Notes: a model not told the origin generated them from the sequence alone. Positions 6,992 through 42,090 are shown, counted from the first letter of the stretch. The stretch: DNA of 44,661 nucleotides from Ardenticatenales bacterium (GCA_020853525.1 JADYYS010000062.1:1-44661); one strand, 5' to 3'. Made by a program: numbers and translations.

Positions 6992-7354
6992 TTACGGCAG
7001 CACGTCGACCTGTCTCGCGGGCACATCGAACGCGCCGACACGGTTCTTGCTGTCCTTGAACCACCCGCTCGTACGCTCCGGCACGGTCAGCGCGCCGATC
7101 GCGTCGAGGCGGACGCCGTAGGTCATCGTCAGGCCGTCCTTGGGAACATGGGTGATCCGCCACGTGATCGTCGTCGGTGCTTGGCCGATCGCGACGGGTT
7201 CAGGCTGACCGCTGTCGGGGATGAGCGTGACCGCGGAGGGCAGGGTCTCGGTTAGGGCAAGGCGCTTGAGGATGATCGATGTCCACGACACTCGGCTGAC
7301 GGTGAACAGCGATCGGAGGAATCGGCCGACGTCAACGGATGAGCGCCATGGCAA
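6992..7354 (-). pseudogene. Orphan C-terminal fragment of a vWA surface protein
   Basis: The 120 codons encode only the end of a protein like the two vWA genes nearby. LKRLALTETLPSAVTLIPDS lines up with VQRIAITDTLPSSVELLADT of the gene at 9747-10937. VGRFLRSLFTVSRVSWTSII lines up with the VGSIFEAIRGQLAFGWLRRL helix of the gene at 11864-13246. The later TERTSGW...VGAFDVPARQVDVL region also fits the paralogues' final strands. The vWA domain, signal peptide and an SD are missing. Homology fades a few codons after the start, close to the composite repeat at 7373. I read it as a remnant left by a repeat-associated deletion or rearrangement. Expression as a short protein cannot be excluded. Confidence 0.6.
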
Positions 7355-7372
7355 GAAGTACCGGGGAAACCC

Positions 7373-7601
7373 CTATCCGTCAGCGCCTTCGGCGCTGCCA
7401 CCTTCCCCCACCGGAGGTGGAGGAAGGATGCTTCTGGGGTGGGGGCAACGGATGTGGGCCGACGTCTGGCAGCCCAACGTCTTCGCCGGGCCGCCGCATC
7501 CACAAGCGTCGGCAGCGCCGGTATCCAACCCTCGGCCACAACACGTCCGTCCTCTCCATCTCCGATGGGGAGGACAGGCGCGCGTCAGCGCGCCGGGAGG
7601 G
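7373..7601. repeat. Composite interspersed repeat, copy 2 (inverted)
   Basis: Blocks 7373-7403 and 7567-7601 are the reverse complements of the two blocks at 4741-4771 and 4685-4719. Between them is 163 bases of other sequence, including a hairpin CACCGGAGGTG at 7410-7420. The outer block overlaps the end of the metallopeptidase gene: its last five codons (PLPAR) and stop at 7585-7587 are made of repeat sequence. Confidence 0.8.
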
Positions 7602-9141
7602 GTCGAAACGCCACCGTACACCCGTCCACGTTCAACCCCACCAGCCCCTCGTCCGCCACCGTGATGACGTCCGCGCCGTTCACCGCCACCGTCCACCCCC
7701 CGCCGTCCACCGGCCGCGCCTCCAGCACGTCGCGCCCCGCCGCACGTCCCGGGTCCGCATCCGGCGCCCGCGCGCCCGCGAGCCATTGCCAGCCGGCGGG
7801 GGACATGCGGAACGCCCAGATGTCGCGACTGGCCAGGAGCTGGACGACGACGAAGTGGGCCGCGTCCGTGTAGCCGACGATGATGCCGGCGCGGAGCGGG
7901 CCGGCGAGCGGCTCGAGGGAGACGGCGAGGGGGGCGGATGCGGGACCGTCGTCGTCCGTGTCGGGCTGCGCGTCGGCGACCCACTTGCGGACGGCGATCG
8001 CGTTCACGCCCGACGCGCCGATGAGCGCATCGCCCCGCTGCTCGAACGCGCGCCAGACCTCGCGCCACGGCTGTTGGTGGCGGTTCAGCCAGGCGCGGTA
8101 GGCGGCGGCGTCGGCGTCATCGACGGGACCGAAGACGGCGGTCCACGCGGTGATGAGGTTCTCGCGGCGGTTCAGCCGATCGAACAGCGCGCGTGCCTCG
8201 GCCGGTCGCTCGTCGATCAGCCAGCTGACGACGCCCCAGCCGCTGGGCCGCGTCCAGCCGGCGCGGTCGGCGACGAGGCTGGCCAGGTCGCGCTCCTTCG
8301 CATCGAACTCGGCCAGCGCCTGGGCGGGGTAGTCCTCCAGCGAGATCGCAGGGACGATGCCGGTGGCGAGTCGCGACCCGTCCCAGTTGTGCATCCCGAA
8401 GTGCTCGGCTAGGCCTTCGCCATACCAGAAGCCGCTGTAGCCCTGGTTGCCGGTGGCGCTGAGGTAGTGGAACTGGTGGGTGGCCTCGTGGAGGATGAGC
8501 ATACGCGTGAAGTAGGCGCTGGGCTGGGCGAAGGCGTAGAAGGTGCGATTCGCCGGGTGGTAGTAGCCGCCGCCGCCGCCGTACGTGATCCCGTCCGCGG
8601 CCATCGCCGCGGCCATCGCGGCCGACGACCCGAAGATTTTGCCCGGCAGGCGCCCCGTCGGCCCGACGACCGGCGGTTCGGCGCCGAAGAACGCCGCCAG
8701 CTGGGGGTACGCGGACTCCAGCAATCGGCCGATGTCGGCGCCGTCGAGTCCGACGCCCGGCTCGACGTGGAGGTCGTAGTGCGCGGTGGTGACGCGGGAG
8801 CCGTCTACGGCGACGGCGGGGGTTGGGGCGGCGGTCGGGGCAAGCGTCGGGGTGGGCGTCGATGTCGCGTCCGGCGACGGCGTGGGCGAGGGGGAAGGGG
8901 AAGGCGACGATGTGGCGGAGGCCGTCGCGGTCAGCGGCGCGCTGGGGGCAACGGGCAGCGACGCGATGTCGACGCCGCGTCCGACGAACGGCAGCGCGAG
9001 CCGGGCCGCCGTCGGACCGTCGGCGTTCTGCGCGCGCAGGTCCGGGTGCGTGGCGATGGCCAGGGCCGTGGTGAGGACGATGACCGCCGCAGACCGCATG
9101 GAGCGCCACCGCATGGGAGGCAGGATGCCGGCGCGGCTCAT
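7585..9141 (-). CDS. Secreted HExxH metallopeptidase (gluzincin type)
   Basis: The 518-residue product has a signal or anchor (SAAVIVLTTALAIATHP, residues 17-33), then a Ser/Thr/Pro linker (about 65-112). A zinc-peptidase domain follows: His218-Glu219-Ala-Thr-His222 in ILHEATHQFHY and a third ligand candidate Glu246 in GEGLAEHF. This is the HExxH...GLAE layout of the peptidase MA-like/DUF1570 group. The C-terminal 150 residues look like a beta-sandwich (LRAGIIVGYTDAAHFVVVQLLA) of the LamG-like or laminin kind, which is a guess. The start is set by an ATGA overlap with the cytochrome stop codon, which implies translational coupling. The stop codon lies inside an interspersed repeat, so the true C-terminus may have been replaced. 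Confidence 0.75.
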   Translation of the reverse strand: MSRAGILPPMRWRSMRSAAVIVLTTALAIATHPDLRAQNADGPTAARLALPFVGRGVDIASLPVAPSAPLTATASATSSPSPSPSPTPSPDATSTPTPTLAPTAAPTPAVAVDGSRVTTAHYDLHVEPGVGLDGADIGRLLESAYPQLAAFFGAEPPVVGPTGRLPGKIFGSSAAMAAAMAADGITYGGGGGYYHPANRTFYAFAQPSAYFTRMLILHEATHQFHYLSATGNQGYSGFWYGEGLAEHFGMHNWDGSRLATGIVPAISLEDYPAQALAEFDAKERDLASLVADRAGWTRPSGWGVVSWLIDERPAEARALFDRLNRRENLITAWTAVFGPVDDADAAAYRAWLNRHQQPWREVWRAFEQRGDALIGASGVNAIAVRKWVADAQPDTDDDGPASAPLAVSLEPLAGPLRAGIIVGYTDAAHFVVVQLLASRDIWAFRMSPAGWQWLAGARAPDADPGRAAGRDVLEARPVDGGGWTVAVNGADVITVADEGLVGLNVDGCTVAFRPLPAR

Positions 9142-38549: not shown

Positions 38550-38609
38550 GGAGCCATATGGAGTCGTCCTGCGAATCCGCCGGAATCGAGATGCGTTCCA
38601 TATGGCTCC
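38550..38609. repeat. 13-bp perfect inverted repeat related to the 22-bp repeats at 832-935
   Basis: GGAGCCATATGGA (38550-38562) and TCCATATGGCTCC (38597-38609) are exact inverted arms, each with the palindrome CCATATGG. The inner right part reads GGAATCGAGATGCG, like the GGAATCGCGC opening of the 22-bp units. It sits 90 bases upstream of the TIR gene, where a regulator could bind. Confidence 0.65.
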
Positions 38610-38700: not shown

Positions 38701-41700
38701 ATGCGTGTCTTCATCAGCCACTCGTCGGCCGACAAGCCCGCCGTCTTGGCGCTGGCCGAAGCGCTGCACGCCGCCGGGCTGGACGTGTGGCTGGACAAGT
38801 GGGAAATCAGCGCCGGCGATGACATCGTAACGAGCATCAACGATGGACTCGAGGAGGCGGACGCGGGGATCGTCGTCTTCTCCGAGCACTCGCGCGGCAG
38901 TCGATGGGTCGAGGCCGAAGTCAGCTTCCTGACGTACGTGCGGATTCAGGAAGGCAGGCTCCTCATCCCGGTCATCGTGGGCGAGTCTGCCTATGTGCCG
39001 CCGCTCCTGCGGCCACTGGCCAGGCGTCGGATCGACGAGACGGATGCGATCATCGATCGGTTGCGCGGACACATCGCGAAACCGCCCACGGTGCGGCGTC
39101 CGGAGGCAGGGGACGTCGTGCGGACGGTCATCGCCGTGGTGCGCGACGGCGACAGCGGGCTCCGCGTGTCGTTGCGGATCGGTGACGCTGCGCCGACCGC
39201 GGAATGGTCCGTGGCGTACGGTGCCTTCCCCCGTACGCTTGCCGCCGCCCAGATGGCGTTCCTGCAAGGGATGCGCGCCGGCGTGCGGCGCACACCGGAC
39301 GACGTGGTGCGCCAGGAACTGGACTCCGTCGTCGTCACGCTCGGGCGAGAGCTGCGCGGTTTGTGCCTGCCGGGTGACATCGGGGCGGCGTTGACGAACC
39401 TCGTGGACGGCAGCGGCGTCGGCACGACGGTCGAGGTCGTGTTCGAGGCGGACCACCCGCGCCTGCTCGGCCTGCCGTTCGAGGCGCTGCGCCTGCCGGA
39501 CGACCGGGTGCTGGCCACGCAGCCGAACGTCGTCGTGATGCGGCGGCCCGTCGGGCTGGCGGCGACCGCGCGCGAGCCGATGGCGGCTCCGCTGAAGATC
39601 CTGGTGGCGGTTGGGGCACCGGACGAGGGTCCTTCGGCCGGGGCGGTGCTCGACCAGGAGCGCGAGCTGCAGAACATCCTCGACGCGGTCGAGCCGGCGC
39701 AGCGGCTGGAGAACTTCGAGGTGCGCATCCTGGAAGTCGGCCATCCGGATGTCATCGCCGACGCGGCGAGGGCGGATGCCTATCATGTCCTCCACCTATC
39801 CTGCCACGGCCTGCCGGGCGCGCTGCAGCTGGAGGATGAGGACGGACATGCGGTTCTCGTCGATGCCGCGGGGCTACTCGACCCGATCCGCGAGTCCGGC
39901 CGCCCGCTGCCGCTCGTACTCCTGAACGCCTGCCACGGTGGGGTCGACGATCGCCAGACGGCGAGCCTGGCGGAGGAACTCCTGCGCGGCGGCGTGCCGG
40001 CGGTGCTGGCGATGCAGACGTCCGTCTCGGATGTGTACGCCACACGCCTGGCCTACGAGTTCTATCGCAGCCTGGCGGACCGTGAGCAGATGCTCCCGAG
40101 CCGCGCCCTCGCCGACGCGCGGCGGGCACTGGAGCGCGAGCGGCAGGCGGCGATCGGGCGCGGTGCCGGCATCGAGGAGTCGCAGCCGGAGTACGCCACG
40201 GCGAGCCTCTTCGTCGCCGGTGAGGAGCGCCCGCTGGCCGATTTCACGCTGGACAAGGTCCCGCTGCGTGTGCGACCCGTCCACATGCTGGAAGGTCCGG
40301 TGCCACAACTCTCCATCGGCGACCTCATCGGCCGCCGGCGGGAACTGCGCGATGCGCTGCGCGTGCTGCGCGACGGCTCGGGGCAGCGCAAGGGTGTTGT
40401 CTTCACCGGGATCGGCGGCGTAGGCAAGAGTGCGGTGGCTGGGCGTGCAATGCAGCGTCTCTCCGAGGACGGCTGGTTGGTGGCGGCGCACGTCGGGCGC
40501 CTGGGACTGGCGCCGGTCGCGCAGGCGTTGGGCGGCGCGCTGATCCTGACTCCGTCGAGGCAGATGAAGGAGGTTGGCCAGCGGCTCCTGACAGCCGACG
40601 CGAGCGACCCCGAGCGGCTGTCGCTGCTCGCCACCGTGCTTGCCCAGGCGCCGATCGTCCTGGTGCTGGACGACTTCGAGCAGAACCTCGCCTCGGGCGG
40701 CGGCGCCTTCGCGGATGGCGACCTGATGGCGCTGTTCGCGTTCATCGTCAGCAATTGCCGGCGTTCCCGCCTGCTCGTCACGTGCCGCTACCCCGTCTCC
40801 GGCCATGACGTCGACCTGCACCGCATCCCGATCGGCCCGCTTAGCGCCGCCGAGACACGCAAGCTGCTGCAACGTCTGCCCGCGCTGCGCGGCGTACCGA
40901 CGGCCGAACTGGCGGCGGCGCTCAAGTCGATCGGCCGTCACCCGCGGATGCTGGAGTTCCTGGACGCCTTGCTTCGCGCCGACGGCCAAGGGCGCCTGCC
41001 GCATGTCACGACGAAGTTGCGGGCGGTCTTGGCCCAGAGCGGGATCGACCCGCAGCAGCTTCCTGCCTCCACCGACGAGCGAGTCCAAGCGGCACTGCTG
41101 GCCGGATCACGCGACGTATTCCTCGACGAGCTGCTCGCCATCGCCCGCCGAGACGGTGCGGATGAGGTGCTGCTTCAGGTGGCCGTCTCAAACCTCCCGG
41201 TCGAGCCGGCTGGCGTGGCGCGCATGATGGCGGATGATCCGGCTGACGAAGGAGACATCGCCGCGGTCGACACCAATCTAGAACGACTCGTCGACCTGTC
41301 GCTGATCCATCGATTCCCGGATCGCTCGGTTTGGGTCCACCGGTGGACGGCGGCCGGCTTGCGCTTGCTGGCAGCTGGAAGTGACGAACGTCATGCAGTG
41401 CGTTGCCGGCGAGCGGCGGCGTATCGAATGTGGCGGGTTGACCATGAGTCGAAAAGCGTCGATGACGGCGTGGAGGGACTTAGGAACTTCCTGGCGGCCG
41501 GCGCAAGCGATGAGGCTGTCGCTGTTGCAGGCGGACTCTTCTCGTACTTCGAACGCAGCCACCAGTCGATGGCCACCGCCGCAGTTGCGTCCGAAGTCGT
41601 CGATGCGCTACCTGAGTCACATCCGGCCTTCGCGAGTGTCGCCGATCGGCAAGCCCAGGCACTGCTCGCCCTTGGCATGACGAACGAGGCGCATGGAACA

Positions 41701-42090
41701 TACGTGCGCCTGCTCCAACGGTTCGAGCGGCTGGCGGCGGCGGAGCCGGATCGGGCGGACTACCAGCGGGACCTGTCGGTGTCGTACGAGCGAATGGGCG
41801 ACCTGTACCGCGCGTTGGGGCAGGGGGAGCAGGCGCGGGATGCGTACGGCAAGTCGCTGGCGATCCGAGAGCGGCTGGCGGCGGCGGAGCCGGATCGGGC
41901 GGACTACCAGATCGACTTGGTCCACTCGCTCTGGCGCCTGGCGGCGGCTGACCGTGAGGGCGGGGGAAGCCTGCTCGTTCGGGGGCGCGAGATACTGCTG
42001 GCCATGAGGCAGCGTGGTGCGCTGACGCCGGCCGATGAGGGGATGATCGAGTGGATCGAGGGGTTGATCAGCGAGCACGGGAAGGCATGA
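38701..42090 (+). CDS. TIR-CHAT-STAND NTPase-TPR protein (predicted immune/cell-death switch)
   Basis: The 1129-residue protein joins four modules. Residues 1-130 form a TIR domain (MRVFISHSSADKPAVLALAE, LDVWLDKWEISAGD, SRWVEAEVSFL, with a candidate catalytic Glu). About 280-500 is a CHAT caspase-like domain with His369 (LHLSCHG) and Cys411 (LLNACHGG). About 535-800 is a STAND/NB-ARC-type NTPase: GRRREL, Walker A GIGGVGKS (570-577), Walker B LVLDDFE (Asp657, Asp658), and RLLVTCRYP. The end has TPR repeats that include two copies of ERLAAAEPDRADYQ. TIR domains in such proteins can cleave NAD+, CHAT domains are proteases, and STAND units switch on ligand binding, so an anti-phage or regulated-death role is inferred. 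No SD precedes the ATG; a near -10 suggests a leaderless mRNA. Confidence 0.88.
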   Translation: MRVFISHSSADKPAVLALAEALHAAGLDVWLDKWEISAGDDIVTSINDGLEEADAGIVVFSEHSRGSRWVEAEVSFLTYVRIQEGRLLIPVIVGESAYVPPLLRPLARRRIDETDAIIDRLRGHIAKPPTVRRPEAGDVVRTVIAVVRDGDSGLRVSLRIGDAAPTAEWSVAYGAFPRTLAAAQMAFLQGMRAGVRRTPDDVVRQELDSVVVTLGRELRGLCLPGDIGAALTNLVDGSGVGTTVEVVFEADHPRLLGLPFEALRLPDDRVLATQPNVVVMRRPVGLAATAREPMAAPLKILVAVGAPDEGPSAGAVLDQERELQNILDAVEPAQRLENFEVRILEVGHPDVIADAARADAYHVLHLSCHGLPGALQLEDEDGHAVLVDAAGLLDPIRESGRPLPLVLLNACHGGVDDRQTASLAEELLRGGVPAVLAMQTSVSDVYATRLAYEFYRSLADREQMLPSRALADARRALERERQAAIGRGAGIEESQPEYATASLFVAGEERPLADFTLDKVPLRVRPVHMLEGPVPQLSIGDLIGRRRELRDALRVLRDGSGQRKGVVFTGIGGVGKSAVAGRAMQRLSEDGWLVAAHVGRLGLAPVAQALGGALILTPSRQMKEVGQRLLTADASDPERLSLLATVLAQAPIVLVLDDFEQNLASGGGAFADGDLMALFAFIVSNCRRSRLLVTCRYPVSGHDVDLHRIPIGPLSAAETRKLLQRLPALRGVPTAELAAALKSIGRHPRMLEFLDALLRADGQGRLPHVTTKLRAVLAQSGIDPQQLPASTDERVQAALLAGSRDVFLDELLAIARRDGADEVLLQVAVSNLPVEPAGVARMMADDPADEGDIAAVDTNLERLVDLSLIHRFPDRSVWVHRWTAAGLRLLAAGSDERHAVRCRRAAAYRMWRVDHESKSVDDGVEGLRNFLAAGASDEAVAVAGGLFSYFERSHQSMATAAVASEVVDALPESHPAFASVADRQAQALLALGMTNEAHGTYVRLLQRFERLAAAEPDRADYQRDLSVSYERMGDLYRALGQGEQARDAYGKSLAIRERLAAAEPDRADYQIDLVHSLWRLAAADREGGGSLLVRGREILLAMRQRGALTPADEGMIEWIEGLISEHGKA
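41725..41910 (+). repeat. Identical 42-bp repeats within the TPR coding region
   Basis: The segment 41725-41766 recurs without change at 41869-41910, 144 bases (48 codons) later. It codes for ERLAAAEPDRADYQ in each TPR unit. DNA identity among neighbouring protein repeats implies recent duplication or gene conversion, and repeat-number change is likely. Confidence 0.85.

Follow-up and report, generated by a model that had tools for sequence, protein, structure and literature searches.

A rare bacterial protein joining TIR, CHAT, STAND and TPR domains in one chain, a probable two-effector immune receptor

In STAND receptors, a sensor frees the NTPase, an oligomer forms, and the N-terminal effectors are thereby clustered. 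TIR domains require clustering to form their NAD+ site, and CHAT proteases such as Csx29 and separase are turned on by conformational release. Characterised bacterial NLR-like proteins have been described as tripartite, with one effector. STAND proteins with an N-terminal TIR or caspase have been listed (PMC8195603), and reviews cover fungal NLRs that bear CHAT as well as CHAT proteases that activate gasdermins (PMC12881547, PMC10197012).

Here we describe a bacterial protein in which a TIR domain, a CHAT protease fold, a STAND NTPase and TPR-like repeats lie in a single chain. As in the antiphage STAND proteins of the Avs/bNACHT type (PMC12169576), sensor, NTPase and N-terminal effector form one polypeptide, but these have one effector domain whereas the present protein has two. 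Its CHAT fold and dyad are those of Csx29/Craspase and SAVED-CHAT, which, however, are switched on by CRISPR RNA targeting or by cyclic oligoadenylate rather than through a fused STAND. A TIR NADase and a caspase-like protease also share one pathway in type IV Thoeris (Rousset et al. 2025, cited in PMC12847820); that system consists of two genes and a diffusible signal, in contrast to the one chain with a STAND switch found here. Separate TIR and protease genes in one operon were not seen at the present locus, where the single-chain gene is flanked by ligA and crcB. The EACC1 systems (PMC7159879) likewise fuse a constant caspase-type protease to a variable effector, and autoproteolysis has been proposed for them, but they comprise two genes, are membrane-associated and have a core without STAND. 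No 5' gene with a single-transmembrane EACC1 domain exists beside our gene, the upstream gene being ligA on the other strand.

A TIR and a CHAT domain in one protein have been noted before, in the DGR target of Thiohalocapsa PB-PSB1 (PMC10907252). In the portion of that source concerning it, the target is likewise a predicted conflict protein with TIR and CHAT, but of the DGR-diversified lectin type and with no STAND-TPR named, the comparison being one of descriptions only. The order TIR-CHAT-STAND-TPR itself was not found described in the open-access literature, a scope outside which most subscription journals lie. An earlier note on this DNA had called the gene the most likely undescribed system in the window. 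The exact order fits that judgement within the literature covered, but the idea behind it is less novel than claimed, because the Thiohalocapsa target (PMC10907252) and the TIR-to-protease signalling of type IV Thoeris (cited in PMC12847820) precede it.

The window, that is, the whole stretch of DNA analysed (44,661 nucleotides, from an Ardenticatenales bacterium), contains the following features of this locus.

38550..38609, no strand: perfect 13-bp inverted repeat GGAGCCATATGGA/TCCATATGGCTCC, arms 34 nt apart, in the ligA/TIR-CHAT intergenic region
38701..42090, + strand: TIR-CHAT-STAND-TPR gene, 1129 aa, ATG start at 38701
38707..39021, + strand: TIR domain, residues 3-107 (Pfam TIR_2)
39022..39111, + strand: Pro/Arg-rich linker between TIR and CHAT, residues 108-137 (alignment of four orthologs; model)
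39112..40242, + strand: CHAT protease fold, residues 138-514 (Pfam CHAT; structure matches to Csx29 and separase)
40303..41400, + strand: STAND NTPase with helical extension, about residues 535-900 (AAA_16; Foldseek)
41401..42081, + strand: C-terminal TPR-like helical repeats, about residues 901-1127 (model; TPR structures)

The open reading frame, start, length and Pfam matches agree on one 1129-residue chain holding all four parts, and Pfam together with structure prediction bears out the proposal that a single STAND switch carries two effectors of enzyme type. The AlphaFold model, built on a 25-row alignment, has a mean pLDDT of 76.6, with CHAT, STAND and TPR mostly at 80-95 and the TIR weak. 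Because the E-values are strong, the model reaches these confidences and a 44%-identical ortholog exists in another phylum, the order is more than chance, and the E-values, orthologs and models rule out chance or mis-translation as its source. The domain identities first proposed were correct but the boundaries were not: the CHAT fold, aligned to Csx29 and separase, occupies residues 138-514 rather than 280-500, the NTPase with its helical extension reaches about residue 900, and the repeats cover about 901-1127, with the best TPR match over 935-1127. The G+C content of the gene (0.69, against 0.72 for ligA; GC3 0.84) is slightly below that of its neighbours.

The TIR domain was matched by Pfam TIR_2 over residues 3-107 (E 4.9e-25) and by phmmer to BtTIR and AbTIR. 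Structure prediction of residues 1-139 alone (pLDDT 79), a check that the earlier note had proposed for this region, gave a TIR fold near those of SPARTA (Z 17.5), AbTIR (15.6) and SARM1 (15.2), with an rmsd of about 2 A to the SPARTA and AbTIR TIRs. The earlier note had proposed mutating the glutamate of WVEAEV; that motif contains E71, which is replaced by Q, K or Q in the other orthologs, and E73 (codon 38917-38919), which is invariant with W69 in four orthologs. E73 lies four residues past this conserved Trp, aligns with the motif glutamate of BtTIR and AbTIR, and is the predicted NADase glutamate. Beyond the domain, a K-P-P or K-P-R motif at linker residues 127-129 is common to the four aligned orthologs, and segment 118-130 is of low confidence in the model.

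The CHAT domain was matched by Pfam over residues 241-482 (E 5.4e-25). Its fold begins about 100 residues ahead of that match, because residues 138-514 align to the Csx29 structure (Z 23.0, 302 residues, 3.4 A). Separase matches over about 138-520 (Z 22.9), as do other TPR-CHAT chains, so that a CHAT fold over residues 280-500, the loss of which would have spoken against the original reading, is predicted. The predicted dyad is His369 (39805-39807) in HLSCHG and Cys411 (39931-39933) in LLNACHGG, the two residues named at the outset. In a profile alignment to SAVED-CHAT (8tl0), H369 falls in the HFxGHG motif and C411 in the LNAC motif, and H369, C411 and the P-loop K576 are invariant across five CHAT-STAND relatives. 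When the genome of the TIR-CHAT gene was searched with CHAT, TIR and the whole protein, it yielded three further CHAT matches, of which one is weak; the sole TIR_2 match was the TIR-CHAT protein itself.

Pfam AAA_16 matches residues 542-681 above cut-off (E 5.5e-9), and the reported Walker A and B motifs are intact, namely the P-loop GIGGVGKS at residues 570-577 (40408-40431) with K576, and LVLDD (40654-40674) with D657. The NTPase matches Apaf-1 and CED-4 in Foldseek (E about 1e-5), the family profile matches the NTPase of the plant NLR Roq1, and the Bryobacterales ortholog passes nSTAND1, with a weak NB-ARC match. TPR_12 at residues 1027-1073 is below cut-off in the TIR-CHAT protein (E 5.6e-4) and above it in an ortholog tail (L064), and residues 935-1129 match TPR structures with Z 16-19. 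At the contig end of the Myxococcota copy (L089, 3129-3602), a 144-bp TPR unit is repeated 3.3 times at 90% identity; such repeat expansion within the putative sensor is probably why the assembly broke off there. In a stub, a 144-bp TPR unit is repeated 2.4 times at 79% identity. Such repetition fits a variable sensor and was counted in favour of an immune receptor. Over the NTPase and sensor there is no match to a catalogued antiphage STAND protein; PADLOC hits are confined to the TIR and a portion of CHAT, and its TIR-NLR model matches residues 2-94 only.

A search of genomes for the same domain order, which the earlier note had called for, found it in three other bacterial phyla with the readable active-site residues kept. 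Orthologs, either full-length or in fragments, were found in Acidobacteriota, in Planctomycetota and in a Myxococcota bin, and these cross-phylum orthologs rule out a lone fusion accident. The Bryobacterales ortholog (L011) is 44% identical over residues 2 to about 800, where its contig ends (TIR 46%, CHAT 48%, NTPase 41%), and a matching C-terminal piece, residues 857-1120, sits at one end of a second contig in that bin. The Myxococcota bin has the TIR and linker at one contig end and the TPR tail at another; in each of the two bins we infer that the fragments belong to one gene. The Planctomycetota ortholog (L098/L100), from a genome of the same phylum as L045, a Planctomyces bin, matches residues 4-1114 with E 4e-287. 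About 500 extra residues without a Pfam match precede its TIR (L100, about 7346-8840).

The TIR glutamate is kept in all four copies and the CHAT His and Cys in the three that are readable, a retention that speaks for a role of both enzymes. A tree was built from 35 CHAT-STAND chassis; in it the three assembled TIR-CHAT sequences group as one clade with support of 100/100, and the fusion has been inherited as one unit. It is rare, with at least four carriers among about 1,960 genomes sampled. In the large sets, scoring was confined to the best two or three candidates of each genome, so that carriers may have escaped and the fusion may be more frequent than this; none was found among 244 cyanobacterial and 200 Gemmatimonadota genomes (best three candidates per genome scored).

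Most CHAT-STAND relatives start directly at CHAT; this holds for L006-L010, which belong to the same class, and for almost every locus listed by the species-wide scan. These CHAT-STAND-TPR proteins (for example L006-L010 and L047) share the chassis, with an intact CHAT dyad, a STAND NTPase and mostly TPR repeats, but have no TIR or other NADase in front; L006-L010 are 24-26% identical to the whole TIR-CHAT protein. The next branch to the TIR-CHAT clade is L087 (1515-6215, - strand), found in the Myxococcota bin. This protein differs in its N-terminal region and keeps the CHAT fold with both catalytic motifs lost (HLFCPY, VLAGDP). A protein from another genome of the same phylum as our gene (L058, 328-4245, + strand) reads SIR2_2-CHAT-AAA_16-TPR by Pfam, and its SIR2 part matches PADLOC models of Argonaute-associated SIR2; the Asn/His motifs of SIR2 and the His/Cys motifs of CHAT can be made out by eye. 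Since L058 branches outside the TIR-CHAT clade, an NADase, TIR in one case and SIR2 in the other, was probably joined to the CHAT-STAND chassis twice, a double origin that stays tentative because the L058 branch is very long. A simple swap of SIR2 for TIR inside the clade is unsupported, L058 lying elsewhere on that long branch.

The TIR-CHAT gene is followed by crcB and by HU-like, YdeI/OmdA-like and HD-domain genes, with ligA and dnaB upstream. The Pfam-matched neighbours in the window are thus housekeeping genes, with no defence island around the gene. The Bryobacterales tail is followed, by eye, by a toxin-antitoxin-like pair and arginine genes, and the flanks of the Planctomycetota copy show no recognisable defence neighbours; neither of these two orthologs with readable flanks shows a recognisable defence cluster, a point that the earlier note had asked to be checked. 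The suggestion of a partner cleaved by CHAT found no support, as there is no co-conserved neighbour in the window or at the same two orthologs. The gene thus probably forms a unit by itself. Each arm of the inverted repeat ahead of it contains the palindrome CCATATGG, and the repeat is a possible operator; no sigma-70-like promoter or terminator was seen at the gene.

Taken from sequence and predicted structure, the TIR-CHAT-STAND-TPR protein is probably a real two-effector immune receptor. Its immune role, its oligomerisation, its NADase and protease activities and a trigger common to both are things that we infer. The TPR array would bind a trigger, probably phage-derived, and the STAND NTPase would then switch state and oligomerise in the manner of Apaf-1, CED-4 and Avs proteins. 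Assembly would gather the N-terminal TIR domains and build a shared NADase site, the CHAT active site would be released or ordered at the same time, and NAD+ loss and proteolysis together would halt or kill the cell. Such a one-gene, NLR-like abortive-infection receptor, in which oligomerisation activates both enzymes, is a reading that we find about as easy to believe as to doubt. It draws on the folds and motifs, the fusion kept as a unit, the SIR2-CHAT relative and the lack of a partner gene; against it stand the rarity of the fusion, the surroundings without a defence island, a sister (L087) without catalytic CHAT motifs, and the fact that no tie to phage was found. Parallel execution, CHAT freeing the TIR, and a TIR product activating CHAT are all possible orders of events, so that TIR signalling followed by CHAT cleavage, as originally suggested, is only one of at least three; parallel activation is the most likely outcome, held with roughly even confidence.

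A self-contained relay between the two enzymes, in which CHAT cuts the linker and frees the NADase or the TIR product activates CHAT in cis, is possible but doubtful. In the former case, which we consider rather unlikely, an oligomerised CHAT would act as a constant trigger, cutting its own Pro/Arg-rich linker and freeing an active TIR (or SIR2) NADase. Two relatives of CHAT by fold, separase and gingipain R, are directed at Arg, which favours such a cut. The linker is flexible, has a conserved start and falls exactly at the NADase/CHAT junction in all four TIR copies, but linkers rich in Arg are frequent where genomes are GC-rich. The NADase type changes between TIR and SIR2 on a constant CHAT-STAND-TPR, yet the SIR2 form, outside the TIR-CHAT clade on its long branch, gives no clean module swap. 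Kaur et al. propose for EACC1 that autoproteolysis by a constant caspase deploys variable effectors (PMC7159879); freed TIR monomers here, however, would no longer have the STAND scaffold on which TIRs normally assemble.

In the latter case, which is unlikely, a cyclic ADP-ribose product of the TIR would activate the adjoining CHAT within one chain. SIR2 enzymes usually deplete NAD+ and do not produce a cADPR-type signal, which speaks against it, as does the lack of any recognised ligand-binding domain between TIR and CHAT. The two active sites are conserved together in a genome with no other TIR_2 match, but CHAT relatives without an NADase are far commoner, so that CHAT would not generally need such a ligand. 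The precedent is type IV Thoeris, in which the TIR product N7-cADPR activates a caspase-like protease (cited in PMC12847820).

That the TIR is the only working effector and CHAT a scaffold or regulatory module is improbable. CHAT can be structural in this family, because the sister L087 has the CHAT fold without His and Cys, and of the caspase domains that occupy the effector position in VMAP systems about 70% are inactive (PMC7159879), but every readable TIR-CHAT copy retains both residues across deep divergence. A non-immune developmental or stress regulator like the CHAT-bearing HetF is very improbable, since the intact NADase Glu, the SIR2 in an analogous relative and the patchy presence across four phyla speak more for a conflict role than the weak HetF profile match across the CHAT part and the chromosomal housekeeping surroundings speak for this one.

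A two-effector receptor of the preferred kind would join TIR-to-caspase signalling of the type IV Thoeris kind and NLR-type sensing in one molecule, and in such a conserved chain point mutants of one gene could show whether NAD+ depletion and proteolysis are redundant, sequential or mutually dependent. Were the relay true instead, NLR-type receptors would have gained double effectors of NADase and CHAT at least twice (TIR, SIR2), with the NAD+-depletion and caspase-type death arms joined on one switch.

Searches of mobile elements gave none of 14 partial plasmid matches covering 80% of the query. A phage-borne origin was rejected, as viral contigs scanned with the family alignments gave no TIR-CHAT protein, only a TIR-wHTH protein (L060), and a scan with the L060 TIR alone returned L060 again and nothing else. 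L060 (596-1546) has a TIR and a C-terminal winged-helix-like part, and its gene adjoins one for a DNA cytosine methyltransferase. A STAND-TPR stub (L093, 7870-9762, - strand), without TIR and CHAT, is 41% identical to residues 544-1122; it adjoins a beta-lactamase-like gene and is either a decayed copy or an effector-less form.
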